Source: Armatimonadota bacterium
GTDB taxonomy: Bacteria; Sysuimicrobiota; Sysuimicrobiia; Sysuimicrobiales; JACQTN01
Reading direction: 5' to 3'
DNA length: 13,771 bases
Assembly (NCBI GenBank): GCA_016210785.1
Contig: JACQTN010000436.1
Coordinates: 1-13,771, forward strand
The notes below the pieces were generated by a model that saw nothing but the letters and a program-made list of their open reading frames with translations, made no database searches and was not told the DNA's origin. This document shows positions 1-13,771 of this stretch, in pieces. The translations under genes and the position numbers were made by a program. The first letter of the stretch is position 1. The number at the start of each line of letters is the position of its first letter.

Positions 1-604
1 CCGTGACGAGCAGCGACACGAAGGTGGGGAGGACGAACTTGATCGCCACGACACCCACCGTCAGGGAGGCTCCGATCACCACCCCCGGGTAGGTCGCGGC
101 GGTCTTGATCCGCGCAGAGAGGTCCATCTCGGCCTCCATGTAGCTTGCCAGATATTCGGCAATGGAGTCCAGGGCCCCGCTCACTTCGCCGGATCGCACC
201 GTGTTGACGTAGAGCTCGGAGAAGACCTTGGGGTGCTTGGCCATCTCCCCGGAGAGGGTGCCGCCCGCCTCGATGCCCCTCCGGACCGACTGGATGACTT
301 CCTTCAGCCTTCGGCTCGACGTCTGCTGGCTCAGCACCTCCAGAGAGGTCACCAGCGGCAGTCCTGCGGCGACCATCGTCGCCAGCTGCCGCGTGAACAG
401 GACCACGTCCTGCCGGTTGATCTTGCCTCCAAAGAAGCTGATCGGCTGAGAGGGACCGGCTTCCTTCTCTTGCCGCTCGAGGGACGTCACCATGAAGCCA
501 CGATCCCGCAGCGTGGCCACGGCGGTCCGATCAGAGTCCGCCTCCAGCGTCCCTGAAACAATCCTGCCTGTGTTGTCCCGGGCACGGTACGCAAACGTCG
601 CCAT
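1..604 (-). CDS. pilC: Type IV pilus / type II secretion inner-membrane platform protein (PilC/GspF family), 3' part beyond window
   Basis: The gene encodes the inner-membrane platform protein of a type IV pilus or type II secretion machine, which couples the cytoplasmic ATPase to pilin assembly. The first 201 residues are visible; the frame stays open to base 1, so about half of a normal 400-residue protein is missing. The start is ATG at 604 (protein begins MATFAYRARDNTGRIVSG, typical of the family). A cytoplasmic N-terminal region covers residues 1-65. The first T2SSF domain starts near residue 68 (FTRQLATMVAAGLPL) and includes the family hallmark GGTLSGEMAKHPKVFSELY near residues 114-132 and SGEVSGALD near 138-146. 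A hydrophobic segment at about 173-195 is the first membrane helix. AGAGGA lies 12 bases and AAAGG 2 bases before the start. It has its own promoter just upstream. Pilus and secretion versions cannot be told apart from this fragment, so the symbol is provisional. Confidence 0.93.
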   Translation of the reverse strand, partial: MATFAYRARDNTGRIVSGTLEADSDRTAVATLRDRGFMVTSLERQEKEAGPSQPISFFGGKINRQDVVLFTRQLATMVAAGLPLVTSLEVLSQQTSSRRLKEVIQSVRRGIEAGGTLSGEMAKHPKVFSELYVNTVRSGEVSGALDSIAEYLASYMEAEMDLSARIKTAATYPGVVIGASLTVGVVAIKFVLPTFVSLLVT

Positions 605-654
605 GGCCTTTGACGGTCCTCTTCCTCTCGATGGCCCCTCCGTCTCCTCAGTTC

Positions 655-683
655 ATTGTGACGCCGGCCCCCGCCGGTGTCAA
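655..683 (-). promoter_or_regulatory. Sigma70-type promoter for pilC
   Basis: Read on the minus strand, a perfect -35 box TTGACA (683-678) is followed after exactly 17 bp by CACAAT (660-655), which matches 4 of 6 bases of the -10 consensus including the final AAT. Transcription would start near 648, giving a leader of roughly 45 bases before the pilC ATG at 604. The spacer is entirely C and G apart from its last base and forms the core of an inverted repeat (see the repeat at 660-681). Box identity and spacing are seen directly; activity is inferred. Confidence 0.6.
660..681. repeat. Inverted repeat filling the promoter spacer, possible operator
   Basis: Two 9-base arms, 660-668 and 673-681, are reverse complements except for one position (G-U compatible in RNA) and are separated by CCCC. 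The repeat lies between the -35 and -10 boxes of the pilC promoter and overlaps the end of the -35 box and the first base of the -10 box. A dimeric regulator could bind here. In a GC-rich genome a chance palindrome is also plausible. There is no following T tract, so it is not a terminator. Confidence 0.4.
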
Positions 684-731
684 ACTCCCCGGCGGCGCCA
701 GGCGCCCTCATCCGCCGGCCCGAGGCTCCTC

Positions 732-763
732 CGGTGGGGTGCCGCCGTCCCCCACCGCGGTGG
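732..763. repeat. Overlapping inverted repeats in divergent intergenic region
   Basis: An 8-bp stem (CGGTGGGG at 732-739 with CCCCACCG at 750-757, 10-base loop) overlaps a perfect 12-bp palindrome, CCACCGCGGTGG, at 752-763. The two structures are mutually exclusive as RNA. They lie about 95 bases upstream of the sensor kinase start and would be in its leader or promoter region. They could be regulatory or simply a by-product of GC-rich composition. Confidence 0.3.
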
Positions 764-857
764 TCCGCTCTCCGTCCCGACGCGGTCATACGCCGTCCCG
801 CGAGGCTCTCGCAGCAGGAGTTTCGTGGCGGGAGTTGAAAGTCTTGAGAATTGACAG

Positions 858-3014
858 ATGGTTGTGCGGGAGGGATGCTGGCTGCCAACGGCGGCGAAGT
901 TTTCCACCCACGTGGAGCGCACGATTATCGAGGCGCGGTGGGTGGCGATTGGTCTCCTGCTGGCCCTGGAGGCTGTCGCGCCGACTCTCCGGACGTCCTC
1001 TCGGTTGCTCCTGCTCGTCCTGGGCGCCGCGGTCCTTTACAACCTCGTGCTCTTTGCCCTGGTCATGAGGGCACGCGACCGGCTCTCCGGACTCGCGGTG
1101 CCCACGCTGATCGTTGACGCGCTTCTGGTGACCCTGAGTCGTTACATGACGGACCATACCCCAGAGGTGTTGCTGCTCGCCGGCGCGGTTGTCGTGGAAG
1201 GGGCGCTGAGGTTCTCCTACCGGGGCAGCGTTGCCGTCGCCGCGGTCGTCAGCCTCGGTGAGATCCTGGCGCCTCCGCTCCTGTCAGACAATCCGGCGAG
1301 AGTGCTGGCCGTGCCGGTGCGCATCGGGTTTCTCTTCCTCATCGCACTGGCTGCGGGATGGGTTGCCTCTCGGGAGCATGAGCAGCGCGCGCGATTCACC
1401 ATGCTGCGCGAGAAAGCGCTGGTCAGCGAGTCGCCGGCGGATCTTACCACCCTGACCAGGAGCTATCTGGACACCATCGCCAGCGCCGTTTCCGCAGACA
1501 GCGGTTCGATCATGGTGGCCCACGGAGAGAGCCGGGATTTGGAGATCATGGCCAGCCGGGGTCTCGATGTGTCCCGTATCGGCAGCACCACCCAACGCAT
1601 AGGCCAGGGCGTCGCCGGGTGGGTGGCCCAGGAGGGCAAGGGACTGCTCCTGAGCCGCTCTCCCGGACAGAACGGCCCCTTCCCCCTGCTGCGCGAGGAC
1701 ATCGTTTCGGCGATCAGCATTCCGGTGAGGGTGCGCGGCCACACGTATGGGGTCATTAATCTGAACCGCAGTCAGGGCCACCCACCGTTCGACGAGCAAG
1801 ACTACGCCCTGGTGAGCCTGGTTGCCAGCCAGCTCGGCGCCGCCCTCGTCCAGGTGCAGCACCTGCAGGCGGTGGCAGAGCGGGTACGCCATCTTGCCGC
1901 GCTCCACAACATCGTGGTCACCAGCCGCAACCTTGACGTGGCCACCCTCCACCTGCGCCTCCTGGAGGAGACCTTGCAGGCCGTCGGAAGCCGACGCGGC
2001 ATCCTCGCTCGTGTCAGCGAGACCGGCCAGCACGAGGTCGTGGCCGTGACGGGCTTCGCCAACAGCGAGGCCACAGAGTTGCTGAAGGCCGCGCTGGAGT
2101 CGGGCAACGATCATCGTGCTCGCCAGATCGTGCCGCCGGCGCCGCCGGCCGGGGAGACCGGGGGCGTGGTGGCCATCCCCCTGACCACCGCAGGGCGCTC
2201 CGTCGGGCTGCTGTGCATGGACGCTGACCTGGCAGGCATCCGGGGCGACGAGGGGATGGCCTTGCTGGAGGCGACCGCCCGCCATCTGGCGGTCGCCGTT
2301 GACAGCGCGCACACCATGCATCATTCGGTGGAGACCGGCGTGACTGAGGAACGCCGCCGCATCGCCCGCGAGATCCACGACGGACTTGCGCAGCGGCTGG
2401 CCGACGCCTTGCTGCAAACGGAATTGACCCACATGGCGGTCCGTGGCGACAACCCGCAGCAGGCCTTTCAGGATCTGGCCGATCTGCGGACCTTGATCGA
2501 ACAGGGCATCCGTGAGCTGCGATCCTTCATGACCTCGCTCCGCGAGCCGGTGATGGCCGACGGAGGTCTGTTCACCTCCCTGCGGCACCTCATCCATGAA
2601 TTCCAGCGGCGGTCCAGCATCGAAGTCGAGTCCACCTTTTCCGACCAGGAGGATCTGCTCTCGCCGGCCGCAAAGCTGACGATCCTTTCGGTTGTGCAGG
2701 AAGCGCTGGTGAACGTGCGCAAGCATGCCCAGGCCACGCGGGTGGCCATCTCCATCGAAAACAATGCCACGGCTTTCCGCTGCAGTGTCACGGACAACGG
2801 CAGAGGGTTCGACGTGGCCAGCCAGGCCGAGTCAGCGTCGGGCCAGCACCTGGGATTGACGTCGATGCGTGAACGGGCAGGCCTCGTGCGTGGAACGCTG
2901 GATGTCCGCAGCGCGCCAGGCCTCGGGACGAGCATCACCCTGACGATCCCGATCATTCAGGAAGGCGCCGGTCCATCAGGAACGCCCAACGTGGAGTCCG
3001 CTGTGGACGGCTGA
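858..3014 (+). CDS. Membrane sensor histidine kinase, NarL/DegS type (6 TM, 2 GAF, HisKA_3, HATPase)
   Basis: This 718-residue kinase senses an unknown signal and should phosphorylate the response regulators encoded next to it. Residues about 29-170 are six hydrophobic segments, a membrane sensor region. Two GAF domains follow, at about 195-335 and 345-483. The dimerisation/phosphoacceptor domain of HisKA_3 type starts near 495 (EERRRIAREIHDGLAQ); His507 is the predicted phosphorylation site, and the H-D-x-x-x-Q pattern (507-512) fits a kinase that also dephosphorylates its regulator. The ATPase domain has the N box (VQEALVNVRKHA, Asn619), DNGRGFD at 646-652, GLTSMRERA at 666-674 and GLGTSITLTIP at 688-698. 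The start is ATG 858; an in-frame TGA at 852 rules out anything earlier. The ribosome site is weak, so GTG 864 or GTG 912 remain possible. It is first in a three-gene operon, 39 bases before the next gene. The ligand is unknown. Confidence 0.92.
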   Translation: MVVREGCWLPTAAKFSTHVERTIIEARWVAIGLLLALEAVAPTLRTSSRLLLLVLGAAVLYNLVLFALVMRARDRLSGLAVPTLIVDALLVTLSRYMTDHTPEVLLLAGAVVVEGALRFSYRGSVAVAAVVSLGEILAPPLLSDNPARVLAVPVRIGFLFLIALAAGWVASREHEQRARFTMLREKALVSESPADLTTLTRSYLDTIASAVSADSGSIMVAHGESRDLEIMASRGLDVSRIGSTTQRIGQGVAGWVAQEGKGLLLSRSPGQNGPFPLLREDIVSAISIPVRVRGHTYGVINLNRSQGHPPFDEQDYALVSLVASQLGAALVQVQHLQAVAERVRHLAALHNIVVTSRNLDVATLHLRLLEETLQAVGSRRGILARVSETGQHEVVAVTGFANSEATELLKAALESGNDHRARQIVPPAPPAGETGGVVAIPLTTAGRSVGLLCMDADLAGIRGDEGMALLEATARHLAVAVDSAHTMHHSVETGVTEERRRIAREIHDGLAQRLADALLQTELTHMAVRGDNPQQAFQDLADLRTLIEQGIRELRSFMTSLREPVMADGGLFTSLRHLIHEFQRRSSIEVESTFSDQEDLLSPAAKLTILSVVQEALVNVRKHAQATRVAISIENNATAFRCSVTDNGRGFDVASQAESASGQHLGLTSMRERAGLVRGTLDVRSAPGLGTSITLTIPIIQEGAGPSGTPNVESAVDG

Positions 3015-3031
3015 GGACGTGTCGCGGCCGG

Positions 3032-3039
3032 AAAGGAGG
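3032..3039 (+). promoter_or_regulatory. Strong ribosome binding site of the NarL-type regulator
   Basis: AAAGGAGG is close to the ideal Shine-Dalgarno sequence. It lies in the 39-base gap after the kinase, 14 bases before the ATG at 3054, which is longer than usual. No other in-frame start fits the domain boundary, so the ATG stands. Confidence 0.6.
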
Positions 3040-3053
3040 AACTCTCGAGTCAC

Positions 3054-3719
3054 ATGCCCAGGCAAGAACCAATCCGCGTGGTGCTGGCGGACGACCATGC
3101 GCTCTTCCGCCATGGCCTCCGCAAGGTGCTGGAGGCGTCCCGGCAGATAGAGATCGTCGGCGAGGCTTCCACCGGCGAAGAGGCCACGTCGGTAGTCCAG
3201 AGTCTGGCCCCGGATGTGGTGCTCCTGGACGTGAGCATGCCGGGGATCTCGGGGATTGAAGCCGCCAAGATCATCGCCACCGCCAGCCCACGCACTCGCA
3301 TCATCATCCTCACCGTACACGCGGATGACGAATATCTCTTCGAGGCCATCAAGGTAGGCGCCACCGGTTACCTGCTCAAAGATTGCCCGCCGGATGCCCT
3401 CCTGGATGCCGTGAAGGTCGTTCACCGCGGGGAGGCAATTCTCCAGCCGTCCCTCGCCGCAAAGGTGCTGCGCGAGTTCGCCCGTGCCCCTGAGCACAAA
3501 GAGATCCACGACGTGCTCACCCCGCTCACCGACCGTGAGCTGGAGATTCTGCGGCTGGTGGCCGGGGGGCTGGCGAACAAGGAAATCGGTCACAAGCTGG
3601 GCATCAGTGAGCGGACAGTGAAAAACCACCTGAGCAACATCATGAACAAGCTACACACCAACAGTCGCACGCAGGCGGCCGTGTATGCCCTGCGGACAGG
3701 AATGATCCGCCTGGACTGA
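3054..3719 (+). CDS. NarL/FixJ-family DNA-binding response regulator
   Basis: This 221-residue response regulator is the probable transcription-factor partner of the upstream kinase. The receiver domain (about 7-122) has the acidic pair Asp13/Asp14 (LADDHALFRHGL), the phosphoacceptor Asp59 (VVLLDVSMPGISG), the switch Thr87 (IILTVHA) and Lys109 (YLLKD). A LuxR-type helix-turn-helix occupies about 153-221 (LTDRELEILRLVAGGLANKE, then GISERTVKNHLSNIMNKL). Its length and domain spacing are normal for the NarL group, and all key residues are present. HisKA_3 kinases and NarL regulators are the standard pairing, which agrees with the 39-base spacing from the kinase gene. Target genes cannot be read from the sequence; the neighbouring pilC promoter or its own operon are candidates only by position. 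Confidence 0.95.
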   Translation: MPRQEPIRVVLADDHALFRHGLRKVLEASRQIEIVGEASTGEEATSVVQSLAPDVVLLDVSMPGISGIEAAKIIATASPRTRIIILTVHADDEYLFEAIKVGATGYLLKDCPPDALLDAVKVVHRGEAILQPSLAAKVLREFARAPEHKEIHDVLTPLTDRELEILRLVAGGLANKEIGHKLGISERTVKNHLSNIMNKLHTNSRTQAAVYALRTGMIRLD

Positions 3720-3738
3720 GCGGACCCCGGGTTCCGAC

Positions 3739-3744
3739 GAAGGG
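3739..3744 (+). promoter_or_regulatory. Ribosome binding site that favours the TTG start at 3754
   Basis: GAAGGG ends 9 bases before TTG 3754, an ideal spacing, but only 3 bases before GTG 3748 and directly abuts TTG 3745. This favours 3754, which also gives the usual receiver-domain opening (M)IRVMLVDD. Confidence 0.5.
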
Positions 3745-3753
3745 TTGGTGGGC

Positions 3754-4128
3754 TTGATCCGAGTAATGCTGGTCGACGACAACGTGAGCTTCCGGGAACG
3801 GCTGGCGCGGTTCCTGCGCCTGCACGACGACCTGGAGGTGGTGGCGGAGGCCGGAGACGGGCTGCAGGCCATCGAGCGGGCGCGCCAGGCCCTGCCGGAC
3901 GTCATCCTGATCGACTTTCGGATGCCTCGACTCGACGGGTATACGGCGGCCCGCAGGATCATCGAGGAATCTCCCACCACGAAAGTCTTCATCCTCACCG
4001 CCTATCCCGGGGCGCTCGATCCGGAAAAGATGGCCCGCGCGGGCATTGAGTTGCTGGTGAAGGACCTGGCGCCTTCGCTGATCGTGAACGCCATCCGGCG
4101 GGTTGTCACCAGCAGCCAGCCCACCTGA
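3754..4128 (+). CDS. Stand-alone receiver-domain (CheY-like) response regulator
   Basis: This protein of about 124 residues consists of a receiver domain and nothing else, so it has no DNA-binding or enzymatic output. From TTG 3754 the acidic pair is Asp8/Asp9 (VMLVDDN), the phosphoacceptor is Asp54 (VILIDFRMPRLDG), the switch Thr is 82 (FILTAYPG) and the conserved Lys is 103 (LLVKDLAP). All phosphotransfer residues are present, so it should be phosphorylated. It could be a phosphate sink, a phosphorelay intermediate or a regulator acting by protein contact. It lies 34 bases after the NarL-type regulator, and the same kinase could serve both. TTG 3745 and GTG 3748 are alternative starts that add 3 or 2 residues. 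The gene ends 37 bases from the convergent HD-GYP gene, and no terminator hairpin with a T tract is visible between them. Confidence 0.9.
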   Translation: MIRVMLVDDNVSFRERLARFLRLHDDLEVVAEAGDGLQAIERARQALPDVILIDFRMPRLDGYTAARRIIEESPTTKVFILTAYPGALDPEKMARAGIELLVKDLAPSLIVNAIRRVVTSSQPT

Positions 4129-4165
4129 CCGTCATCGCCTTCTCGTTCGGCCGCGAGTCCCAACC
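4129..4165. other. Convergent gap between the receiver-domain gene and HD-GYP copy 2
   Basis: Only 37 bases separate the stop codons of the two converging operons. A 4-bp stem (CTCG/CGAG) is the only hairpin visible, and there is no T tract in either direction, so no intrinsic terminator is called. Transcripts may overlap at their 3' ends or end by Rho. Confidence 0.6.
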
Positions 4166-5575
4166 CTACAGATGCATGGCCACATCAATGCCATACCGGC
4201 CGGGATCCACGCCCCGCACAATCCTGTGAGTCGGGCTCCGGGCCAGGTCCAGCGACGTAGGTTCCAGCGCCTGTCCCTGGCGATCACGCACCACCTTCAC
4301 CCACGGCCGCGTGGGCTCCGCCAGGTTGGCCTGATAGACCACGGCCACGTCTCCGCTGTCCAGTTCGACCACCGACCCCATGGGATACGGGCCCAAGGCA
4401 TGGGTGAAGAGCGCGGCCATCGGGGGATCAAACCACGTGCCGCTCAAGCCCTGGATGACCACCATCGCCTGCTCCGGGCGCAGGACCCGCCGCACCCGGT
4501 CACGCGATGCGGTTGTCGTGTCGTAGAAATCTGCAATCGCCACCAGTCGGGAGTATGGGTGGGGGCGCTCCTTAAACGAGAGCTTCGGGTATCCCGACAG
4601 GTCGAACCGGGCGTGGTGCTCAAAGGCCGCGGCCATGGGAATGCTGTCCCATCCGCTGAGGCTGCGGAGAAGGTAGGCGCCCTCCACGACGTGCCGCTGC
4701 CGGATGGCCTCTTCCCCGGGGGCGAGCGGATCGACCTTATATCGCAGGTCCGCGGGGATGTTGACCTTGCCGATGTCGTGAACCAGGGCGGCCAGGCCAA
4801 GATTGCTCCGCTGCCTGGCGTCCAGTTCGACGCCGAACACCGCCAGCAGGGTGAGCAGACACACGTTGACGGGATGCCGGGCAGACTCTTCGTCGTGGCC
4901 GCCCATGGCCGCCAGCCGCGTAATCTCGCGTGCTCCCCGCAGGAGCATTTCCTGCAGCGACTCCACCACAAACCTGGCGCGCAAGATGTCCAGCTGCCCG
5001 TATCGCTCCACCTCAAAGGTCATCTCGACAAAGGTCTGCACGGCCCAGTAGTACACCTGCTCGGCCGCTCGCTCCACGCTGCCGCTGGCCGGCGCCTGCC
5101 ACACTCTGGGCGGCCCGATCCGCACGTGGCGCACGCCGGCTTCCTTCAGGGCGTCCGGGGCGCCTCCCAGGGCGATGATTTCTTCCGGCTCCAACCCGAG
5201 GATCTGCACGACCTCCACGAGTTCAGCGCGGTCTATCCCCCGCCGGAAGCTCACGCTGCCGATCTTCCGCTCGAGACACAAACCGCTGAACTGGCGGAGG
5301 TAGACGGAGTCCTCCTCCACCAGCTCCTTGTTGACGAAGACCGCATCCTCCCAGACGTCGAAGCGGATGTCGGGGGCGGGCGCCAGGATATCCCTGATCG
5401 CGGTCTCCACCAGGTCGGTGGCCTCGTCCACGCGAGGGTGCCCCTTGGGGTAGAGACGGAGGTCTTTGATGGCCGCCATGAGGAGCCGGAGAAACTCCTT
5501 GGCCTGCTCGATCCGTTCAACGGACTGGGCGACGACGGGCGGCTGTTCTCGGGCCTGTCGGGGTAGGGTCGTCAC
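4166..5575 (-). CDS. HD-GYP-type phosphodiesterase, copy 2 (predicted cyclic-di-GMP hydrolase)
   Basis: This 469-residue soluble protein has three parts. Residues about 24-155 are an N-terminal domain shared with the three upstream proteins (FLRLLMAAIKDLRLYPKGHP; later IALGGAPDALKEAGVRHVRI). Residues about 195-385 are an HD-GYP domain. It shows Glu230-x3-His234 (HPVNV), His266-Asp267 with IGK, His295, His320-His321 and DLSGYP (325-330), and ADFYD with Asp349. The usual 'HHE' reads HHA, but the metal ligands all appear present. Residues about 395-469 form a small beta-rich C-terminal domain (GSVVELDSGDVAVV). Known HD-GYP proteins hydrolyse cyclic-di-GMP to pGpG or GMP; activity here is inferred. 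The GTG start overlaps the stop of the upstream HEAT gene (GTGA), with GGAG 9 bases before it, so translation is probably coupled. It is the last gene of the valS-led operon. No EAL or GGDEF domain and no membrane segment is seen. Confidence 0.9.
   Translation of the reverse strand: MTTLPRQAREQPPVVAQSVERIEQAKEFLRLLMAAIKDLRLYPKGHPRVDEATDLVETAIRDILAPAPDIRFDVWEDAVFVNKELVEEDSVYLRQFSGLCLERKIGSVSFRRGIDRAELVEVVQILGLEPEEIIALGGAPDALKEAGVRHVRIGPPRVWQAPASGSVERAAEQVYYWAVQTFVEMTFEVERYGQLDILRARFVVESLQEMLLRGAREITRLAAMGGHDEESARHPVNVCLLTLLAVFGVELDARQRSNLGLAALVHDIGKVNIPADLRYKVDPLAPGEEAIRQRHVVEGAYLLRSLSGWDSIPMAAAFEHHARFDLSGYPKLSFKERPHPYSRLVAIADFYDTTTASRDRVRRVLRPEQAMVVIQGLSGTWFDPPMAALFTHALGPYPMGSVVELDSGDVAVVYQANLAEPTRPWVKVVRDRQGQALEPTSLDLARSPTHRIVRGVDPGRYGIDVAMHL
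5572..5575 (-). promoter_or_regulatory. GTGA stop/start overlap coupling HEAT protein 2 and HD-GYP protein 2
   Basis: On the minus strand the four bases GTGA contain both the GTG start of the HD-GYP gene and the TGA stop of the HEAT gene. Such overlaps usually mean translational coupling, which fits proteins made in a fixed ratio. Confidence 0.8.
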
Positions 5576-7677
5576 GCCCCCACTCTCCGCTCGACGGCGG
5601 CCACCGCCTGCTGGGCCAGCGTTCGCAACTCATGATTCTTGGCACGGAAGAACAGGCTCCTGCGGCCCGCCAGCCGTCGGAGCACCGGCAGTGCCGCGTG
5701 GGAGCCGAGGCGGGCCAGGGCCTGAATCGTTTCTCGCCTGAGCGGATAGTCCCGCAGCAACGGGTCCCACCGCTCGAGGATCTGCACCAGGACCGGCACA
5801 GCCAGGTCATTGCCGGAAACCCCGAGCCACCGTGCTGCCTGCCGGCGGGTCTCCTCGTCGGGCTTCTGCAGGAGTTTGGTCAGGATGGCGATGGCCTCCG
5901 GAGAATCCCGCTGCGCCAACACCCGCATGGTCTCCTTGCGCACCCGAGCATCCTGATGCTCGAGGGTCTCCTCGAGATATCGCAGGACGGCAGGATCGGA
6001 CAGCTCGCCGAGAATGCCGACGATATTCCGAACGACGTACCACCGGGGATCCGCGAGTTTGGAGGTGAGAGCGGGCACCCGGTTCTCCCCGATGCGGACC
6101 AGGACGGCGCAGATCGTGCGCCTGATTCCTATCCGCTCCTCATCGGTGAGCTGATCAAGCAAGTGACCCAACACATCGTCCTTGTACTCCTCAAAGAACC
6201 GATAGACCTCCGAGATTCCCCGGTCCCGGCCGGCCTCCCCGGCGTTCAACCACTCCACCAGAGACCGGATCAGGTCCCGCGTCAACAGACGGCCGATGGC
6301 CGACCGTGCGATTTCGCCGCGCTCCTCGGGCAGGTTGTCGGCGAGGGTGCGCAGGCTGTGCATCATCCGCAGCAATACGCGATAGTTGCCCTCCGCAACC
6401 GCCAGCGAGAGCCCGGCGACCAGGAGATCCACGAGCGATTCGAAGCGGGCGCGGTCATCCAGGTGCTGCAGCAGGTCGAACGCGGTCTCGATGGCCTCCA
6501 CCCGAGCCATCCTTTCATCGAGGCCCACCAGCGCCCGCCTGGCCTCGGCCACCAGATCGGCCGACGGAGGTCCAACCTCTTCTGGCCGCCCGGCCAGCAC
6601 CGCGCCCAGCTCCGAGTCCAGCGGGAGCCCCTGCACTCCGTCCAGGGGCAGGGCGGCGAGATCGATGACGACGCCGCGGGGAGCCAGGACCCGCTGAGCG
6701 GACTCAATGATCTGCCGGGCGAGCGCAGGCGCCCATCCCAGGCTCACCGCCACCGCCTCCGCGACCTCCTGGCTATCCCCCGGGTGCGCGAACGCATCAA
6801 AGACGACTCGACGGAGGTCATCTTCCGCGAGGTGCTGGAGAAGGGCCAACGCCAGCGGATCCCGACCGGCCTTCCGCACGATGAGCCCGCGCAGCGGTGG
6901 GCCCAGCGGTTCCTGGAGCATGAGGACGGCCCGCGCCAGGCTGTCGTAGATTCGCGCCCCATCCTCGGGAAGCTCGTCCACGATGATCCGGTCCAGGGTG
7001 CGCATCCCCTGAAACATGGCCTCCAGCTTCTGCTGCTGTCCATCGTCGGTCATGGACTTGAGGAGGACGCCGAAGGTTTCCTCCAGGAACCGGGCGATCT
7101 GAGGTGGTTCTCCCTTCAATGCGGCCAGCAGTTCCTCGCGGTTCTCAAGAAACAGCGGTGCCCGCCCCAGGATGGCGCTGAGCATCTCATCGTCGACAAA
7201 GCTGACTTCGTCCGGGGGCAGCGTCAGCTCGTAGACCGTGATGTGACCCACCCCTCGCTGCCAGAGCAGGTGGGCAACCCCGCCCAGGCGGCGCACGGTA
7301 TCACGGGTCATCACCAGGATGGACAGGAGGTGTTGGACCTCGACGGGAACGGCACCGGGCAGGATCGTGAGGCGCCGGATCTGGCGGGCGTACATGCTGA
7401 AGATCATGCCCGTCAGGACATCCTCCATCTGCTCCTCTTCTTCCAGGAAATTGAAGGAGACGGTGTACCGGTTGATGTTCGCGATGAGGGGGCCATGCTT
7501 GCCCAGGTAGACGTTCAGCGGACCTTCCAGCACGCTCAGGCATTCCTGGGTCAGGCCGTGCTCGGGCGAGTACATGCGGGAGGCTTTGAAGGCAGCATTG
7601 AAGCGCTTGAGGACACCGATCGCCTCCTCAAGCCGCTCTCCTCTTGCCTTCGTCTCCGCGTCGGGGGTGACCGCCAC
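5572..7677 (-). CDS. HEAT-repeat protein, copy 2, with N-terminal domain shared with HD-GYP partners
   Basis: This 701-residue soluble protein has no recognisable catalytic motif and is probably a scaffold or regulator of the adjacent HD-GYP enzyme. Residues about 18-150 resemble the N-terminal domain of the HD-GYP proteins (VLKRFNAAFKASRMYSPEH; ending GGVAHLLWQRGVGHITV). The middle, about 165-510, is alpha-helical and aligns with HEAT copy 1 (DRIIVDELPEDGARIYDSLA against DRAILDQPLDDQPTLYRNLA). A Pro/Gly-rich linker lies near 332-372. HEAT-like repeats fill about 515-695, including DPRWYVVRNIVGILGEL and ARVRKETMRVLAQ. The start is GTG 7677, with GAGGG 7 bases upstream; an in-frame TGA near 7707 excludes a longer form. 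It starts 66 bases after HD-GYP copy 1 and overlaps HD-GYP copy 2 by four bases. The function is not established. Confidence 0.85.
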   Translation of the reverse strand: MAVTPDAETKARGERLEEAIGVLKRFNAAFKASRMYSPEHGLTQECLSVLEGPLNVYLGKHGPLIANINRYTVSFNFLEEEEQMEDVLTGMIFSMYARQIRRLTILPGAVPVEVQHLLSILVMTRDTVRRLGGVAHLLWQRGVGHITVYELTLPPDEVSFVDDEMLSAILGRAPLFLENREELLAALKGEPPQIARFLEETFGVLLKSMTDDGQQQKLEAMFQGMRTLDRIIVDELPEDGARIYDSLARAVLMLQEPLGPPLRGLIVRKAGRDPLALALLQHLAEDDLRRVVFDAFAHPGDSQEVAEAVAVSLGWAPALARQIIESAQRVLAPRGVVIDLAALPLDGVQGLPLDSELGAVLAGRPEEVGPPSADLVAEARRALVGLDERMARVEAIETAFDLLQHLDDRARFESLVDLLVAGLSLAVAEGNYRVLLRMMHSLRTLADNLPEERGEIARSAIGRLLTRDLIRSLVEWLNAGEAGRDRGISEVYRFFEEYKDDVLGHLLDQLTDEERIGIRRTICAVLVRIGENRVPALTSKLADPRWYVVRNIVGILGELSDPAVLRYLEETLEHQDARVRKETMRVLAQRDSPEAIAILTKLLQKPDEETRRQAARWLGVSGNDLAVPVLVQILERWDPLLRDYPLRRETIQALARLGSHAALPVLRRLAGRRSLFFRAKNHELRTLAQQAVAAVERRVGA

Positions 7678-7743
7678 GTTCGCGCCCTCGTCTCCAGATC
7701 CTCATCCATCGGCACTTCTGGATCGAGTTCCAAATTTCCTGCA

Positions 7744-9165
7744 TCACACATAGGCCAGCACGTTCACCCTGGCCTCCAGGGGATCGACGCACTGGACCAC
7801 CTGCCGGGTGTCCTCAGCCGCATTGACAATGAAGGGGTCCACGTCCTCCCCGGAGGGACCGCGGATGACCTTGACCTGCGGACGGAACACGTCTTCCTCC
7901 CTGGTGCGGACGACGACCGCCAGCTCCCCGGTGTCCAGGACGACCACCGAGCCGGCCGGGTAGAGCCCCAGCAGCCGGACAAAGAGGCGGGCCAGCGTGG
8001 GATCGAACATCTGACCGGCCCGAGAAAGGATCATCTTCATGGCCATATCCGGCAGCATGGGCCGCCGGTAGACGCGCCGGGAGGAGGTGACGGCTTCGTA
8101 GAAGTCGGCGATCTGCACGATCCGCGAAAAGAGATGGGGGCGGTCCTTCGCGGCGATCTGGGGGTAGCCGGTCAGATCGTAGTGGGCATGGTGCTCGAAC
8201 GCCACGACCATGGCGATACGCGCCAGACCAGGCAGTTTCTGCAGCAGGTGTGCTCCATATATAGGGTGGCGATTGATGAGATCCCGCTCTCGCGGCGTCA
8301 GCACACCCGGCTTGGTGATCACCTGCCACGGCACCCTGACCTTCCCCAGGTCGTGAAGAAGAGCGGCGATGCCGAGCGCAAAGATCTGAGGGCGGTCCAG
8401 GCTGAGGCGCGTGCCCATGAGCACGGAAAGGACGCACACGTTCACGCAGTGGTGCGAAGTGTCCTCATCGTACCGCTTGAGCGAGTTGAATCCCAGGAAG
8501 GCGAACCGGTCCTGGACGACCACATCCACCATGGCGTTGATGAAAAGGCGTGCCTTGCGCAGGTCGAGAGGAAGTCCCTCGCTCGCCGCGTAGTCGAACT
8601 CGTATGCGCTGCGCAGGGCAACCCGGTAGACCTCGGCCACATCGATCTCCGCCCTGGGTTTCTCCAGGAGAACGTTGCGACGAGGAAGGGCGGTGATGCT
8701 GGCAACTCCCTTCTCTTTCAGCGCGCCGGCCACACCGCCCATCTCCCGGAGGGCGCGTGGATGCGTGTGGAGCACATCGACAAAGCGTTCGATCTCGGAA
8801 CCCTCGATCCCGCGGTGGAACTCGAAACCACCGATGTCGATCTGTTTGAGCTCCATGAGCAGCGGATAGAGAAGGAAGCTTTCCTCGAGGAGGAGGCGAT
8901 TCTCCCAGAAGAAGGTATCCTCGTAGATGTGGAACCTCACCACTGGCTGCGCAAGCAGCAGGTCGGTGAGCACGTCTGTGAGCTGGCTGGTGATCTCGGC
9001 CATCGCGGGGTGACCAACGGGGTAGAGATGCCGCTGGCGTTTAGCCGCGGCCAGGAGCCGCAATACCGTCCCCACGCGCCGCCACCCTCGCCTGGCGGCA
9101 CCCGGTCTGCCGGACCACAGCGAGGGCGGGGAGTCCATCGCTGGAGGCTGACGCTCGACGCTCAT
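7744..9165 (-). CDS. HD-GYP-type phosphodiesterase, copy 1 (predicted cyclic-di-GMP hydrolase)
   Basis: This 473-residue protein has the same architecture as HD-GYP copy 2. A Pro/Arg-rich tail (1-30) precedes the shared N-terminal domain (about 30-160: VLRLLAAAKRQRHLYPVGHP; later GGVAGALKEKGVASIT). The HD-GYP domain (about 200-390) has Asp235-x3-His239 in DTSHHCVNV, His271-Asp272 with LGK, His300, His325-His326 and YDLTGYP (329-335), and ADFYEAVTSSRRVYR around Asp354. Position 235 is Asp where copy 2 has Glu. The C-terminal beta-rich domain (about 400-473: GSVVVLDTGELAVVV) matches copy 2. The start is ATG 9165 with GGAGGG 5 bases before it. It follows HEAT copy 1 by 34 bases. The metal-binding set suggests an active cyclic-di-GMP phosphodiesterase; this is inferred from the family, not shown. 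Confidence 0.9.
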   Translation of the reverse strand: MSVERQPPAMDSPPSLWSGRPGAARRGWRRVGTVLRLLAAAKRQRHLYPVGHPAMAEITSQLTDVLTDLLLAQPVVRFHIYEDTFFWENRLLLEESFLLYPLLMELKQIDIGGFEFHRGIEGSEIERFVDVLHTHPRALREMGGVAGALKEKGVASITALPRRNVLLEKPRAEIDVAEVYRVALRSAYEFDYAASEGLPLDLRKARLFINAMVDVVVQDRFAFLGFNSLKRYDEDTSHHCVNVCVLSVLMGTRLSLDRPQIFALGIAALLHDLGKVRVPWQVITKPGVLTPRERDLINRHPIYGAHLLQKLPGLARIAMVVAFEHHAHYDLTGYPQIAAKDRPHLFSRIVQIADFYEAVTSSRRVYRRPMLPDMAMKMILSRAGQMFDPTLARLFVRLLGLYPAGSVVVLDTGELAVVVRTREEDVFRPQVKVIRGPSGEDVDPFIVNAAEDTRQVVQCVDPLEARVNVLAYV

Positions 9166-9170
9166 ACCTT

Positions 9171-9176
9171 CCCTCC
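9171..9176 (-). promoter_or_regulatory. Ribosome binding site of HD-GYP copy 1
   Basis: GGAGGG on the minus strand, 5 bases before the ATG at 9165. It favours this ATG over the later in-frame Met at residue 10. Confidence 0.7.
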
Positions 9177-9199
9177 CACGGCACAGCGACCCGGCCGAT

Positions 9200-11314
9200 T
9201 CAACGGCTCACGTTCACACGATCGGGTGGTTCCGCCGGTTGGCTGGTGCGCTGGAGCGCCTCCAGGGCATACCGGGCGGTTCGCCTCAGTTCCCGGGCTG
9301 GCGCTCCAAAGGCAAAGCGCCTGCGCGCAATGCGCTCCAGGTAAGGGACAGCCTCCGTGGCGCCGATGCGCGCCAGCGTTCGAATCGCCGCCTTCTTGAC
9401 GTCTAACGTGCGGTAGAGTGGATCCGAATGGAGCACGATCTGTAGGATGGAGGACACGGCCTGGCTGGGACGTTCGCCGTTAATCCGCAGCAGCACCGCC
9501 TGCTTGATCCGCGGGTCCGGATCCTGCAGCCCCTCCAGGAGCACTTCCTGCGCCTCGGGGGTCCTGATCCGGGCCAGGGCTTCCACCACCTCACGGCGTA
9601 CCCGGTACTCGGGGTGCTTGAGCGCGGTCGCCAGGCAGGGAAGCACCTCCGGAACCGCGATGCGTCCCATGATGGTCACAACATTGCGCACCAGGTGCCA
9701 GCGCTGGTCGGCGACATGGCGGCCGATGACCTGGACGTGCTCCCGGCCCCAGCGGGCGAGGAGATCACACAGCAGCGCTCGCACCGCCCGCTGAGGCTCC
9801 TTGCCCAGGCGCTGGATCAACGGGATGATCAGCTCATCGCTGATCGGCTCCAGACAGGCAGAGATCGCGTCGCCGGCGGCAGTCCCCCGCTGTTCCCACA
9901 GCGCAGTCAGCAGCTGCTCCACGAGCCGCTCATCGACCAGACGCAGGAGCATGTCCCGGGTGAGGTCGCTGCGGGGGCCCGTCGGGCCCGTCGCCAGCCT
10001 CTTTAAGGTTCGCAGGACCAGGGAGAGCATCCGGTAATCGCTGCGCTCGAGGAGACCGGGAAACTGTTCTTCCAGAACCCGGGCGGCGGCGACAAAGCTT
10101 TCCAAATCCTCCTCTTGCAGGAGGAGATCCACATGGGTGGCAAGAGCCTCCGCGGCAACCGAGGCGGCAGTGACGTCCTTCCCCAGAGCCACCAACTCGT
10201 CGATCGCTTCGTCCGTCACCGCCACCATGTCATCCGTGACGGGCAGATCCTGCTCTATATCCACCCGCTTGGCGGGGCCTGCGGGCATCTCCGGCTCGGC
10301 GGCTGACAGGCTCTCGATCACGTCGGGAGGAAGGTGGGTCTGCCCCAGCCGGGTCAGCTCCTGCGCCACCCCTTCCAGGACCTCCTGGCTCCGGCCTGTG
10401 CCCTCCCGGAACGCCCGGGTCATGTCCCCGAGCAGGGACACCATCTGGCTCGGCGACAGGCTGCTGACCATCAGCCGGCCCAGTTCCTGGCTGGAGAGCT
10501 GCTCCAGCACCGACATCGCAGCCTCGTCCCGGCTCCCCCCGGCCAAAAGGACCTTCCCCACCAGGGAGCGGATCGGGTCCTCCAGGAGGAGCTGCGCCTG
10601 CGCGAGGTTCCGGTACAGAGTCGGCTGGTCGTCGAGCGGCTGGTCGAGGATGGCCCGGTCGATGACCCGGAGCGCATGGGAGACCTGCTCGCCGATCTGC
10701 CGTTCGTCGGCCGTGTCGCCGTGCCGGGTGGCGAACTCGTGAACGTTACCGATGAGTCTGGCCGCCTCCTCCGGTCCCTCCCTGATGGAGTCCAGAATCA
10801 TGTCTCGCTCTTGCGGGGAGAGACGCCGCTGACCGAACAGCGCGTGCACCGCGTCGGTGGGTTGAACCTCCTCCTCGATCAGTTGCTCGAGAGACACCTC
10901 CCGGACCTGGACCGTATAAATCCGGCGCTCCCAGAGCAGGTGTTCGAGCCCCCCGGCCTCTTCCAGGTCTGACCGCTCCATGGTGACGATATCCAGGAAG
11001 CCCAGTATGTCCGCGTCCTGGACCTCCGGGAGGAACGTGACCTGCGCGAGATTATACGCGTAGAAATAGAGGGCAAGGCGGGAGAGACCTTCCAGCGCCA
11101 CCTCCTCTCCATCCACGCGAAAGTTGTCCTTGGTAATCCCAAGGGCGAGCACGCCGTGGCTCTCCATGAACCGGCGCAACTCGCTGAGGAAGCGGGGGAG
11201 TTGCTGATCGACGGCAGCGTGGTGGGCACCATAGAGCCGGGCGGCCACAACGAGCGTGTTGAGCCGCCAGAGAACTCTCTCCGCCTCCGGCCTGAATTCC
11301 TCCATGCCCAGCAC
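9200..11314 (-). CDS. HEAT-repeat protein, copy 1, with N-terminal domain shared with HD-GYP partners
   Basis: This 704-residue soluble protein is a paralogue of HEAT copy 2. Residues about 10-140 carry the shared N-terminal domain (VLWRLNTLVVAARLYGAHH; ending GGLEHLLWERRIYTVQV). The middle region (150-330) aligns with copy 2 and is followed by an Ala/Pro/acidic linker at about 335-375. HEAT-like repeats occupy about 505-690 (DQRWHLVRNVVTIMGRI, YRVRREVVEALARI, KKAAIRTLARIGATEAVPYL). No enzymatic motif or membrane segment is seen, so a scaffold or partner-binding role is the reasonable guess. The start is uncertain: GTG 11314 or ATG 11305, neither with a strong ribosome site. It lies 53 bases after the valS stop and 34 bases before HD-GYP copy 1, consistent with one transcript. 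Confidence 0.85.
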   Translation of the reverse strand: MLGMEEFRPEAERVLWRLNTLVVAARLYGAHHAAVDQQLPRFLSELRRFMESHGVLALGITKDNFRVDGEEVALEGLSRLALYFYAYNLAQVTFLPEVQDADILGFLDIVTMERSDLEEAGGLEHLLWERRIYTVQVREVSLEQLIEEEVQPTDAVHALFGQRRLSPQERDMILDSIREGPEEAARLIGNVHEFATRHGDTADERQIGEQVSHALRVIDRAILDQPLDDQPTLYRNLAQAQLLLEDPIRSLVGKVLLAGGSRDEAAMSVLEQLSSQELGRLMVSSLSPSQMVSLLGDMTRAFREGTGRSQEVLEGVAQELTRLGQTHLPPDVIESLSAAEPEMPAGPAKRVDIEQDLPVTDDMVAVTDEAIDELVALGKDVTAASVAAEALATHVDLLLQEEDLESFVAAARVLEEQFPGLLERSDYRMLSLVLRTLKRLATGPTGPRSDLTRDMLLRLVDERLVEQLLTALWEQRGTAAGDAISACLEPISDELIIPLIQRLGKEPQRAVRALLCDLLARWGREHVQVIGRHVADQRWHLVRNVVTIMGRIAVPEVLPCLATALKHPEYRVRREVVEALARIRTPEAQEVLLEGLQDPDPRIKQAVLLRINGERPSQAVSSILQIVLHSDPLYRTLDVKKAAIRTLARIGATEAVPYLERIARRRFAFGAPARELRRTARYALEALQRTSQPAEPPDRVNVSR

Positions 11315-11367
11315 CGCCCCGCGCAGAGCGCTCAGACCCCGGGCACTATTTCACAGGCGACGCGCCG

Positions 11368-13771
11368 TCACGCTGTCAATTCGCGTTTGCGCCGGTAAAC
11401 AGTTTGTTTTCGCCTCTCCAGGGCGGCTTCCCTTTCCCGCTCGCGCTCGATCACCTCGGAGGGGGCCCGGCTGACAAACTCCCGATCATTGAGCTTCGCC
11501 CGCACGCGCTGGAGGTCGGTCTCGACCCTGGCCAGCTCCGCCTCCAGGCGTGCCATCTCACGCCCCAGGTCGATCACGCCCGCCAGCGGGATGTGGACCT
11601 CGACATCGCCAACCAGGGCGGCGGCGGCCTGGGAGGGCTTCTCCCCGTCGGATCCGCGGAGTTCCACCCTGCCCGCTCGGACCAGGTGGGCGATCGCGGG
11701 CCGGATCTGGTCCAGGCGTGAATGTCGGGACGCCGGCGCCACCAGGACCAGGTCGACCCGCCGGCCTGGCGGCACGTGCATGTCCGCCCGGATGCCCCGG
11801 CCCGCCCGGACCAGGTCCATGAGCAGGCCCATCGCCTCCTCGGCCTCTTCGTCCACCAGCGAAGGATCGAAACCCGGCCACTGCGCCACCATGAGGCTGG
11901 GCGTCTCGTGATCGCGGGGCAGGCTCTGCCAGACCTCCTCGGTGATGAAGGGCATCACGGGGTGCAGCAGCGCCATCGTACCCGACAGCACCCCCCACAA
12001 GGTCTGCTGCACGGCGGCCCTCCGGGGGCCGGACAGCGCAGGCTTGGCCAGCTCCAGGTACCAGTCGCAGAACTCGCTCCAGACGAAATCGTACAGCGCC
12101 CGGCAGGCCTTGTCGAACTCGTATGCGTCCAGGAGCGCCGTCACGTCACGCACCGTGCGCGCGTAGCGACTCCGGATCCAGCGGTCGGCCAGATCCAGAT
12201 GGCCGTGCCACCCGCCGGTTGGGTCGGGCCGGAACCCGGCCAGGTTCATCCGAACAAACCGCGCAGCATTCCAGATCTTGTTGGAAAAGTTCCTGGTATC
12301 TTCCACCATTTTTTCGGAGAATCGCAGGTCCTGTTGCGCCTGAGAGCACCGCAGGAGCAGGCTGAAGCGAAGCGCGTCGGCACCGTGGCGGGCAATCTGC
12401 GCCAGGGGATCGATGCCGGTGCCCAGCGACTTCGACATGCGCCTCCCCTCGATGTTCAGCACGGTGGGATTGATGTAGACGTCCCTGAAGGGGACGTCGC
12501 CCCGGAACTCCAGCCCAAACATGATCATGCGCGCCACCCACAGGAAGATGATGTCCCGGGCCGTGGCCAGCACCGCGGTGGGATAGAAGTAGGCCAGGTC
12601 TGCGGTCTCCTCTGGCCACCCCAGTGTGGCGATCGGCCACAGGGCCGAACTGAACCAGGTGTCCAGCACGTCGCCGTCCTGGCGCAGCCCGGTGGCACCG
12701 CAGGCCGGACAGGCGGCGGGCGACGTTTTGCTGGCCACGATCTCGCCGCAGGGACAGTACCACACCGGAATCCGGTGCCCCCACCACAACTGCCGGGAGA
12801 TGCACCAGTCGCGGATCTCGGCCATCCAGTCCAGGAAGATGCGCTGCCATCGCTCGGGGAAGAACCGCACCCGGCCCTCCTCCACGGCGCGGATGGCGGG
12901 CGCCGCCAGTTCCTTCATCCGGCAGAACCACTGCTCTGAGATGTAGGGCTCGAGCACGGTCCCGCACCGGTCGCAGTGCCCGATGCTGGTCCGGTAGGGC
13001 TCCGTCCGGACCACGAACCCACCCTGCGCCAGGTCTTCGGCGATGGCCGCGCGGCAGGCGAACCGGTCCATCCCCTCATACCGGCCCGCCAGGTCGTTCA
13101 TCCGGCCGTGCTCGTCGAGCGCTACGAGCGTCTCCAGCCCGTGATCGCGCCCGATCTCGTAGTCGAGCGGATCGTGCCCGGGAGTCACCTTGACCGCCCC
13201 CGTACCGAACTCGCGCTGCACACGCCGGTCGGCGATGATGGGAAGGCGGCGGCCCACCAGGGGCAGCGTCACGGCCTGGCCGATGAGGTGGCGGTATCGC
13301 TCGTCGTCAGGATGGACGGCGACGGCGACATCGGCCAGGATGGTCTCCGGCCGCTGCGTGGCCACGACGATGCCCGCACCGCCGTCCTGGCCGGGGTAGC
13401 GCAGGTAGAAGAGGGTGCTGTCGGTCTCCCGGTGGTCCACCTCCAGGTCCGAGATGCCGGTCCGGCAGCGCGGGCACCAGTTCACCATGTAGGTGCCCCG
13501 GTAGATGTAGCCCTTGTTGTGCAGCCGGATGAAGGCCTCCATCACCGCGTCGTAGTAGTGCGGATCGAGGGTGAAGACAAAACGATCCCAGTCGCAGGCA
13601 CAACCCATCGACTTGAGCTGCTCGGCGATGATGTTGCCGTACTGCTCCTTCCACCGCCAGACCCGCTCCAGGAAACGCTCCCGGCCCAGGTCCTCCCGGG
13701 TCAGACCTTCCCTGGCCAGGTCCCGCTCCACCACGTTCTGGGTGGCGATGCCCGCGTGGTCGGTGCCGGGC
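11368..13771 (-). CDS. valS: Valyl-tRNA synthetase, 5' end beyond window
   Basis: ValRS attaches valine to tRNA(Val) and edits mischarged threonine. The frame is open through base 13771, where it reads PGTDHAGIATQ, a ValRS signature just after the HIGH region. About 800 residues are visible and perhaps 80 are missing, including the HIGH motif. The GTG at 13734 is therefore internal and not the start. Visible parts, in order, are the CP1 editing domain (ATQRPETILADVAVAVHPDD; FGTGAVKVTPGHDPLDYEIG), zinc-type Cys clusters (HCDRCG; WYCPCG then CPACG), the catalytic segment ISRQLWWGHRIPVWYC, DTWFSSALWP, and the KMSKS loop as RMSKS (12427-12441). These are followed by the anticodon-binding helical domain (YDFVWSEFCDWYLELAKPAL) and a C-terminal coiled coil of about 65 residues rich in Glu and Arg. 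The ATQRPET variant is discussed in the findings. It is the first visible gene of the leftward operon. Confidence 0.97.
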   Translation of the reverse strand, partial: PGTDHAGIATQNVVERDLAREGLTREDLGRERFLERVWRWKEQYGNIIAEQLKSMGCACDWDRFVFTLDPHYYDAVMEAFIRLHNKGYIYRGTYMVNWCPRCRTGISDLEVDHRETDSTLFYLRYPGQDGGAGIVVATQRPETILADVAVAVHPDDERYRHLIGQAVTLPLVGRRLPIIADRRVQREFGTGAVKVTPGHDPLDYEIGRDHGLETLVALDEHGRMNDLAGRYEGMDRFACRAAIAEDLAQGGFVVRTEPYRTSIGHCDRCGTVLEPYISEQWFCRMKELAAPAIRAVEEGRVRFFPERWQRIFLDWMAEIRDWCISRQLWWGHRIPVWYCPCGEIVASKTSPAACPACGATGLRQDGDVLDTWFSSALWPIATLGWPEETADLAYFYPTAVLATARDIIFLWVARMIMFGLEFRGDVPFRDVYINPTVLNIEGRRMSKSLGTGIDPLAQIARHGADALRFSLLLRCSQAQQDLRFSEKMVEDTRNFSNKIWNAARFVRMNLAGFRPDPTGGWHGHLDLADRWIRSRYARTVRDVTALLDAYEFDKACRALYDFVWSEFCDWYLELAKPALSGPRRAAVQQTLWGVLSGTMALLHPVMPFITEEVWQSLPRDHETPSLMVAQWPGFDPSLVDEEAEEAMGLLMDLVRAGRGIRADMHVPPGRRVDLVLVAPASRHSRLDQIRPAIAHLVRAGRVELRGSDGEKPSQAAAALVGDVEVHIPLAGVIDLGREMARLEAELARVETDLQRVRAKLNDREFVSRAPSEVIEREREREAALERRKQTVYRRKRELTA

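Follow-up and report, generated by a model that had tools for sequence, protein, structure and literature searches.

A common N-terminal domain on adjacent HEAT-repeat and HD-GYP proteins of an Armatimonadota bacterium points to a possible conserved two-gene signalling module

HD-GYP enzymes can be numerous per genome, and how each of them acts locally is an open question. According to the paper that also supplied the metal ligand definition used here, HD-GYP proteins are frequently fused to further regulatory or sensory domains (PMC8177086), and further papers give the architecture of PmxA as Cache-HAMP-HD-GYP (PMC4877007) and describe MshE-type ATPases as binding cyclic dimeric guanosine monophosphate (c-di-GMP) (PMC5013675). 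Here, we analyzed a window of 13,771 nucleotides (the whole stretch of DNA under study; contig JACQTN010000436.1, positions 1 to 13,771 of the forward strand, assembly GCA_016210785.1) from an Armatimonadota bacterium, which forms a single contig of the draft assembly G000 (616 contigs, 72% complete) with 21 HD_5 matches in the genome. Downstream of valS, its minus strand carries the genes HEAT1, HD1, HEAT2 and HD2 in this order, and, judged by their sequences, all four encoded proteins start with one common domain of about 125 residues. We consider it somewhat probable that these genes represent a conserved module of two genes, whose products, a HEAT scaffold and an HD-GYP phosphodiesterase translated from one message, are linked through their shared domains.

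The common domain was assessed pairwise by comparing the best local alignment score of the N-termini with 1000 shuffles per pair, using the ranges given by an earlier reading of the DNA (the sequence-only reading) and no other selection. The resulting z-scores were 34.5 for HD1/HD2, 24.3 for HEAT1/HEAT2, 11.6 for HD2/HEAT2, 6.6 for HD1/HEAT2, 5.1 for HD1/HEAT1 and 4.9 for HD2/HEAT1, with the real score being reached by one of 1000 shuffles for HD1/HEAT1 and by none of 1000 for each other pair. All pairwise alignments were collinear across the domain, and for HD1/HEAT1 the best local score was higher with whole proteins (68) than with the domain alone (58). In single-sequence phmmer searches within the set of four, HEAT2 matched HD2 with an independent E-value (i-E) of 1.1e-5, and the matches of HEAT1 to HD1 and HD2 were weak (i-E 0.007 to 0.09). 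Moreover, a profile of 28 HD-type domains aligned with one of 36 HEAT-type domains over 130 columns (probability 99.9, E 1.4e-31; E 3.2e-32 on a larger HD/HEAT split); since the members of both profiles were collected with a mixed seed profile, which biases them toward similarity, the pairwise shuffle comparison serves as the independent leg of the evidence. Profile matches located the domain in every one of the four proteins (95–117 bits), and a profile built from the four segments also matched relatives elsewhere. The proposal of the sequence-only reading that the same domain occurs on all four proteins is hence borne out by the shuffle scores, the significant mutual profile matches and the predicted secondary structure described below; its domain ranges agree with the profile placement within a few residues, and the motifs LYP.GH, MYSPEH and LYGAHH as well as the four closing GG segments are present as it gave them.

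AlphaFold2 models were obtained for the N-terminus of HD1 from an alignment of HD-type rows only, and for that of HEAT2 from an alignment of 8 HEAT-type rows only, with a mean predicted local distance difference test (pLDDT) score of 87 and 82, respectively. In the HD1 model, the block means were 91–98 over model residues 11–140 (aa 30–159), and the last five fragment residues, which were misaligned by MAFFT, lie outside the domain. Both models begin with two long helices, followed by two strands and a helical stretch, and continue with one strand and three short helices up to a final strand, with the helical stretch comprising two short helices in HD1 and one in HEAT2; from separate alignments, the predicted order of secondary-structure elements in the two N-domains is nearly the same.

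Database searches did not assign this domain to a described family. Among the listed Pfam matches of the four window proteins, no family at E<=1 had its best stretch within the first 200 residues, and none of the N-termini carried a known NCBIfam domain, which agrees with the suggestion of the sequence-only reading that the domain family may be unnamed. For domains cut from relatives, Pfam at E<=0.01 matched 0/36 of the HEAT type and 1/28 of the HD type, the latter being a weak match to PF09166 (E 0.0034). Sequence searches for solved relatives gave no credible match (best E 0.22, with the four-row profile), and solved-structure searches with Foldseek and VIA-align (the HEAT2 model by VIA re-alignment only) gave no clear fold match, where a missing PDB match for the N-domain is not proof of a new fold.

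The domain is found across many distant bacteria. Relatives were detected in 44 of 147 genomes with the four-domain profile, and a broader profile found them in 42 of 145 genomes sampled at one per genus (~29%; many of them also in the 147-genome set) and, in a second sample, in 48 of 147 genomes, corresponding to 27 of 69 genera. Named carriers include a Thermodesulfovibrionia bacterium, a Nitrospiraceae bacterium, another Nitrospirae bacterium, an actinomycetote and a deltaproteobacterium, all of them binned genomes. The architecture count, which leaves out the matches on G040:C17, G035:C115, G048:C171, G070:C123 and G009:C1, covers 121 domain-carrying frames in 68 loci, namely 62 HEAT-class, 55 HD-class and 4 unclassed frames, three of the latter running off the contig end. 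The fourth (L094) is an HD-type carrier with a frame broken in the Gly-rich region that separates the shared from the HD domain, preceded by a HEAT-class and followed by an HD-class frame. A further 59 short loci, 20 of which (among L181–L209) repeat loci counted before, hold 42 HEAT, 16 HD and 9 unclassed domain frames, with 7 of the unclassed cut by the locus end. Rare exceptions among the carriers are a complete 360-residue protein, a 1364-residue protein with the domain near its N-terminus and without any Pfam match (L253:1926-6017, minus strand), and a 1204-residue protein in which GGDEF and an AAA ATPase are combined with the shared domain and HEAT repeats (L071:5340-8954, plus strand).

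A protein search starting from a Nitrospirae HD-type member returned 276 relatives, and among the 120 listed the given names were just HD or HD-GYP domain protein; with HD1 and HEAT2 as queries, only the queries themselves and one relative were found. Among plasmid records, 495 matched an HD-type relative, none of which covered 80% of it in one place. An open frame of 24,576 residues at L252 was traced to masked bases and discarded; the gene there is an ordinary HD-type member.

The two carrier classes occur in a recurrent order. Of the 55 HD-class genes, 50 have a HEAT-class carrier immediately upstream in the same orientation, and in 23 of these 50 pairs the frames overlap by exactly 4 bases; gene starts were set to the longest frame, so that overlaps of more than 4 bases are partly artefacts. 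In the window, the HD2 start and the HEAT2 stop overlap by 4 bases, and the spacing is 34 bases between HEAT1 and HD1 and 66 bases between HD1 and HEAT2. The remaining five HD-class cases are a fusion (L056), a naive start running through the HEAT gene (L081) and three genes at contig ends (L053, L089 and L093); for L053 and L093, the truncated upstream gene belongs to the HEAT class. Conversely, 12 of the 62 HEAT-class carriers have no HD-class carrier after them, comprising the L081 artefact, two contig-end cases (L055 and L068) and nine that stand alone. In the fetched loci, no HD-class frame was found after these nine, and the genes of HD-like length downstream of two of them (L064 and L075) are not HD-class. 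An HD enzyme with this domain thus seems to require an adjacent scaffold gene, whereas the scaffold also occurs where the enzyme is absent. The recurrence of the same HEAT/HD-GYP pair in many distant bacteria suggests that the two proteins work as one unit.

In a tree of 118 domains (129 columns, with 27 of 115 inner branches well supported), the HEAT and HD labels require 4 changes vs 39 in shuffles, which is the pattern that one old duplication of the domain would give. Distances between the paired domains correlate with r 0.90 over 50 pairs and r 0.27 over 25 thinned pairs, and in either set 0 of 2000 permutations were as high. One lineage carries a single 732-residue frame (L056:6433-8631, minus strand), in which a HEAT-type N-terminal part without a Pfam HEAT match is followed by a complete HD-type protein, giving two shared domains in one chain. 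This fusion fits one complex, but might also have arisen by misassembly or through a local deletion.

The window contains two tandem copies of the module, pair A (HEAT1-HD1) and pair B (HEAT2-HD2), and both HD proteins carry an HD-GYP domain. The HD_5 (PF13487) matches of HD1 (100.1 bits) and HD2 (57.6 bits) exceed the curated cut-off of 27.2, and all seven metal ligands (H...HD...H...HH...D) as well as GYP are present in both. All seven ligands are kept in 51 of the 55 HD-class proteins, and in the 46 non-pair-B members the G, Y and P of GYP are kept in 41, 42 and 44, respectively. In the nine pair-B relatives (L042, L043, L044, L045, L047, L049, L056, L095 and L100), G and Y are gapped throughout while the seven ligands are kept; HD2 of the window retains GYP. 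At the third-metal Glu position (E185 of PmGH), where the alignment is uncertain, HD2 has Glu, HD1 has Asp, and the non-pair-B members mostly have Tyr (20), Asp (10) or Ser (8). PmxA was considered as a characterised member and ruled out, its N-terminus being different as far as the available part of its description goes.

On the side of the putative scaffold, HEAT1 (107.9 bits) and HEAT2 (90.1 bits) exceed the HEAT_2 (PF13646) cut-off of 27.7, and HEAT_2 and HEAT_PBS repeats are located C-terminally in both proteins. An identity as phycobiliprotein lyase or NblB was rejected, as the CpcE and NblB models of NCBIfam gave 16–36 bits vs cut-offs of 330 and 300 (best 36.4 vs 300).

In quick full-protein trees, the supported sets that contain HEAT1 and HD1 are free of pair-B rows, HEAT2 shares a supported set with the nine pair-B rows from relatives, and HD2 is not firmly placed; the pair B of the relatives forms one group in the HEAT tree and in the HD tree. 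Two relatives (L095 and L100) carry one pair in one orientation and the B pair in the other, the two being separated by valS in L095, and a valine--tRNA ligase gene adjoins the module in several relatives, too.

In the window's bacterial order, pair B is also linked to type IV pilus genes. Ten pair-B loci belong to the window's bacterial order, two of which are cut at or after the HD gene, and in seven of the eight others a pilB/gspE-like gene follows directly downstream on the same strand; the one scanned with Pfam (in L045) encodes T2SSE and MshEN. The window retains a block of a sensor kinase, two receivers and pilC (Table 1), and a similar kinase/receiver block is found in L044, L045 and L056. 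The block of kinase, NarL-type regulator and receiver recurs in relatives in which the pilB/gspE-like gene is present. Outside this order, L065 has two genes for MshEN ATPases (pilB/gspE-like) upstream. Elsewhere in the window's genome, there are four MshEN and nine GGDEF matches. Across the 145 genomes, MshEN is present in 41/42 domain-bearing genomes vs 86/103 without the domain (p 0.013) and GGDEF in 42/42 vs 92/103 (Fisher p 0.020), values that are uncorrected for kinship and stand against a high background.

Table 1. Features of the analyzed window (positions in the 13,771-nucleotide stretch; aa, amino acid residues).
Feature	Position	Strand	Remarks
HEAT1, 704 aa	9200..11314	-	First gene of pair A; shared N-terminal domain, middle part and C-terminal HEAT repeats
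HEAT1 shared N-terminal domain, aa ~10-138	10901..11287	-	Profile match aa 13-135, 100 bits
HEAT1 best HEAT_2 stretch, aa 536-607	9494..9709	-	Pfam
HD1, 473 aa	7744..9165	-	Second gene of pair A; shared N-terminal domain and HD-GYP phosphodiesterase domain
HD1 shared N-terminal domain, aa ~30-161	8683..9078	-	Profile match aa 33-158, 113 bits; AlphaFold2
HD1 HD_5 (HD-GYP) domain	7993..8433	-	Pfam, 100.1 bits
HEAT2, 701 aa	5572..7677	-	First gene of pair B; shared N-terminal domain, middle part and HEAT repeats
HEAT2 shared N-terminal domain, aa ~19-150	7228..7623	-	Profile match aa 22-147, 95 bits; AlphaFold2
HEAT2 best HEAT_2 stretch, aa 569-642	5752..5973	-	Pfam
HD2, 469 aa	4166..5575	-	Second gene of pair B; shared N-terminal domain and HD-GYP domain
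HD2 shared N-terminal domain, aa ~24-154	5114..5506	-	Profile match aa 27-151, 117 bits
HD2 HD_5 (HD-GYP) domain	4424..4831	-	Pfam, 57.6 bits
Valine--tRNA ligase (valS), partial	11368..13770	-	Runs off contig end; upstream neighbour
PilC/GspF, type IV pilus / type II secretion platform protein, partial	2..604	-	Downstream context
Sensor histidine kinase	858-3014	+	Convergent with the module
NarL-type response regulator	3054-3719	+	Convergent with the module
Stand-alone receiver	3745-4128	+	Convergent with the module

The analysis shows the common descent of the domain, the recurring gene order, the overlapping frames, the co-inheritance and the retained active-site ligands. In the module that we favour, the N-terminal alpha/beta domain on both partners would descend from an old duplication, and its two versions would bind each other, so that a metal-dependent phosphodiesterase of cyclic dinucleotides would be tethered to a HEAT-repeat scaffold. 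The HEAT solenoid could then place the phosphodiesterase at a target, where it would lower the cyclic dinucleotide; in the window's bacterial order this target might, speculatively, be the type IV pilus machine as the likely candidate. We infer the formation of a HEAT/HD complex, the catalysis by the HD protein, its substrate and its target. More tentatively, the locus might represent an undescribed signalling module, in which an unrecognised and possibly new-fold domain, present in two diverged versions, would lock scaffold and phosphodiesterase in a complex and so confine signal removal to a chosen machine. The sequence-only reading had suggested hetero-oligomerisation or a common signal for the domain-sharing partners, which is plausible in view of the adjacency, the overlaps, the co-inheritance and the L056 fusion; an obligate hetero-complex, in contrast, does not fit the nine lone HEAT-class carriers.

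Several observations weigh against the favoured module. As the nine HEAT-class carriers without an HD-class gene illustrate, the domain can act without its hetero-partner, so that hetero-pairing is not its only use. The domain tree is built from 129 columns and few of its branches are well supported, and a correlated inheritance of adjacent genes is evidence of co-inheritance, not of binding. On the enzymatic side, the GYP motif is absent in all nine pair-B relatives, and substrate or activity may therefore differ there. With respect to the target, the window has no pilB between HD2 and pilC, and the pilus linkage is not general beyond the window's order, since the neighbours there are mixed, with no Pfam family occurring in more than three of the 59 flanking genes scanned (of 68 listed).

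Another explanation would be that the N-terminal domain is a sensor of a ligand or state, used in parallel by both proteins, which would respond to the same signal without being bound together. The presence of the domain on HEAT-class proteins without an HD-class neighbour and on the GGDEF-AAA-HEAT protein of L071, as expected for a portable input module, fits this view, as does the frequent fusion of HD-GYP to regulatory or sensory domains described in PMC8177086. One would, however, expect to find a general sensor also on kinases, cyclases and transcription factors, whereas the 121 carriers hold no class besides HEAT and HD (the four unclassed being cut or broken), and the HEAT-then-HD order with its frequent 4-base overlaps points to assembly; we regard a parallel sensor as rather unlikely. 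Even less probable, in our view, is a role as homodimeriser, in which HEAT and HD-GYP proteins would each pair with themselves and the gene pair would be kept for dosage or shared regulation only. Two separate homodimers would split the domain tree into HEAT and HD types almost as fully as observed (4 changes), and lone HEAT-class carriers exist, but every HD-class carrier with an upstream flank in the examined loci had a HEAT-class neighbour, and one lineage fused both N-terminal domains in one chain (L056).

Finally, the similarity itself could be due to chance or to convergent evolution of leucine-rich helical N-termini that have an LYP motif, to which the weak single-sequence matches of HEAT1 to HD1 and HD2 might be attributed. 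Chance similarity is ruled out by the shuffle z-scores together with the profile-profile match over 130 columns (from profiles with a mixed seed), and the collinear alignments and the near-identical predicted order of secondary-structure elements likewise speak against an origin of this kind, which altogether is extremely improbable.

A widespread HD-GYP class with a co-encoded repeat-protein partner and matching domains makes the partner and the place of action directly testable, and would also give a name and a function to a domain not annotated by Pfam on these proteins. In the accessible portions of the open-licence literature searched, outside which most subscription papers lie, no description of a HEAT/HD-GYP pair was found, and in open-licence papers naming both HD-GYP and HEAT repeat, the matching passages available concern other matters.

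Compared with known systems, the position of pair B next to a pilB/gspE-like gene in the window's order resembles the local c-di-GMP control of type IV pili via MshEN ATPases, from which the window locus differs in having no pilB; the known pilus regulators FimX and PilZ feature other domains. Like CpcE and NblB, the HEAT proteins carry C-terminal HEAT_2/HEAT_PBS (PBS-lyase-type) repeats, but unlike these they possess the shared N-terminal domain and usually an HD-GYP partner, and their scores with the corresponding models are far below the cut-offs. HD1 and HD2 share HD_5, the metal ligands and GYP with HD-GYP phosphodiesterases such as PmGH (4mcw), PA4781 (4r8z), RpfG and PmxA, although the position after HH, occupied by Glu in PmGH, holds A, L, V, I, M or Q in 41 of the 46 non-pair-B members. 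Unlike these HD-GYP enzymes, HD1 and HD2 carry an N-terminal domain without a Pfam family that they have in common with the HEAT protein encoded directly upstream.

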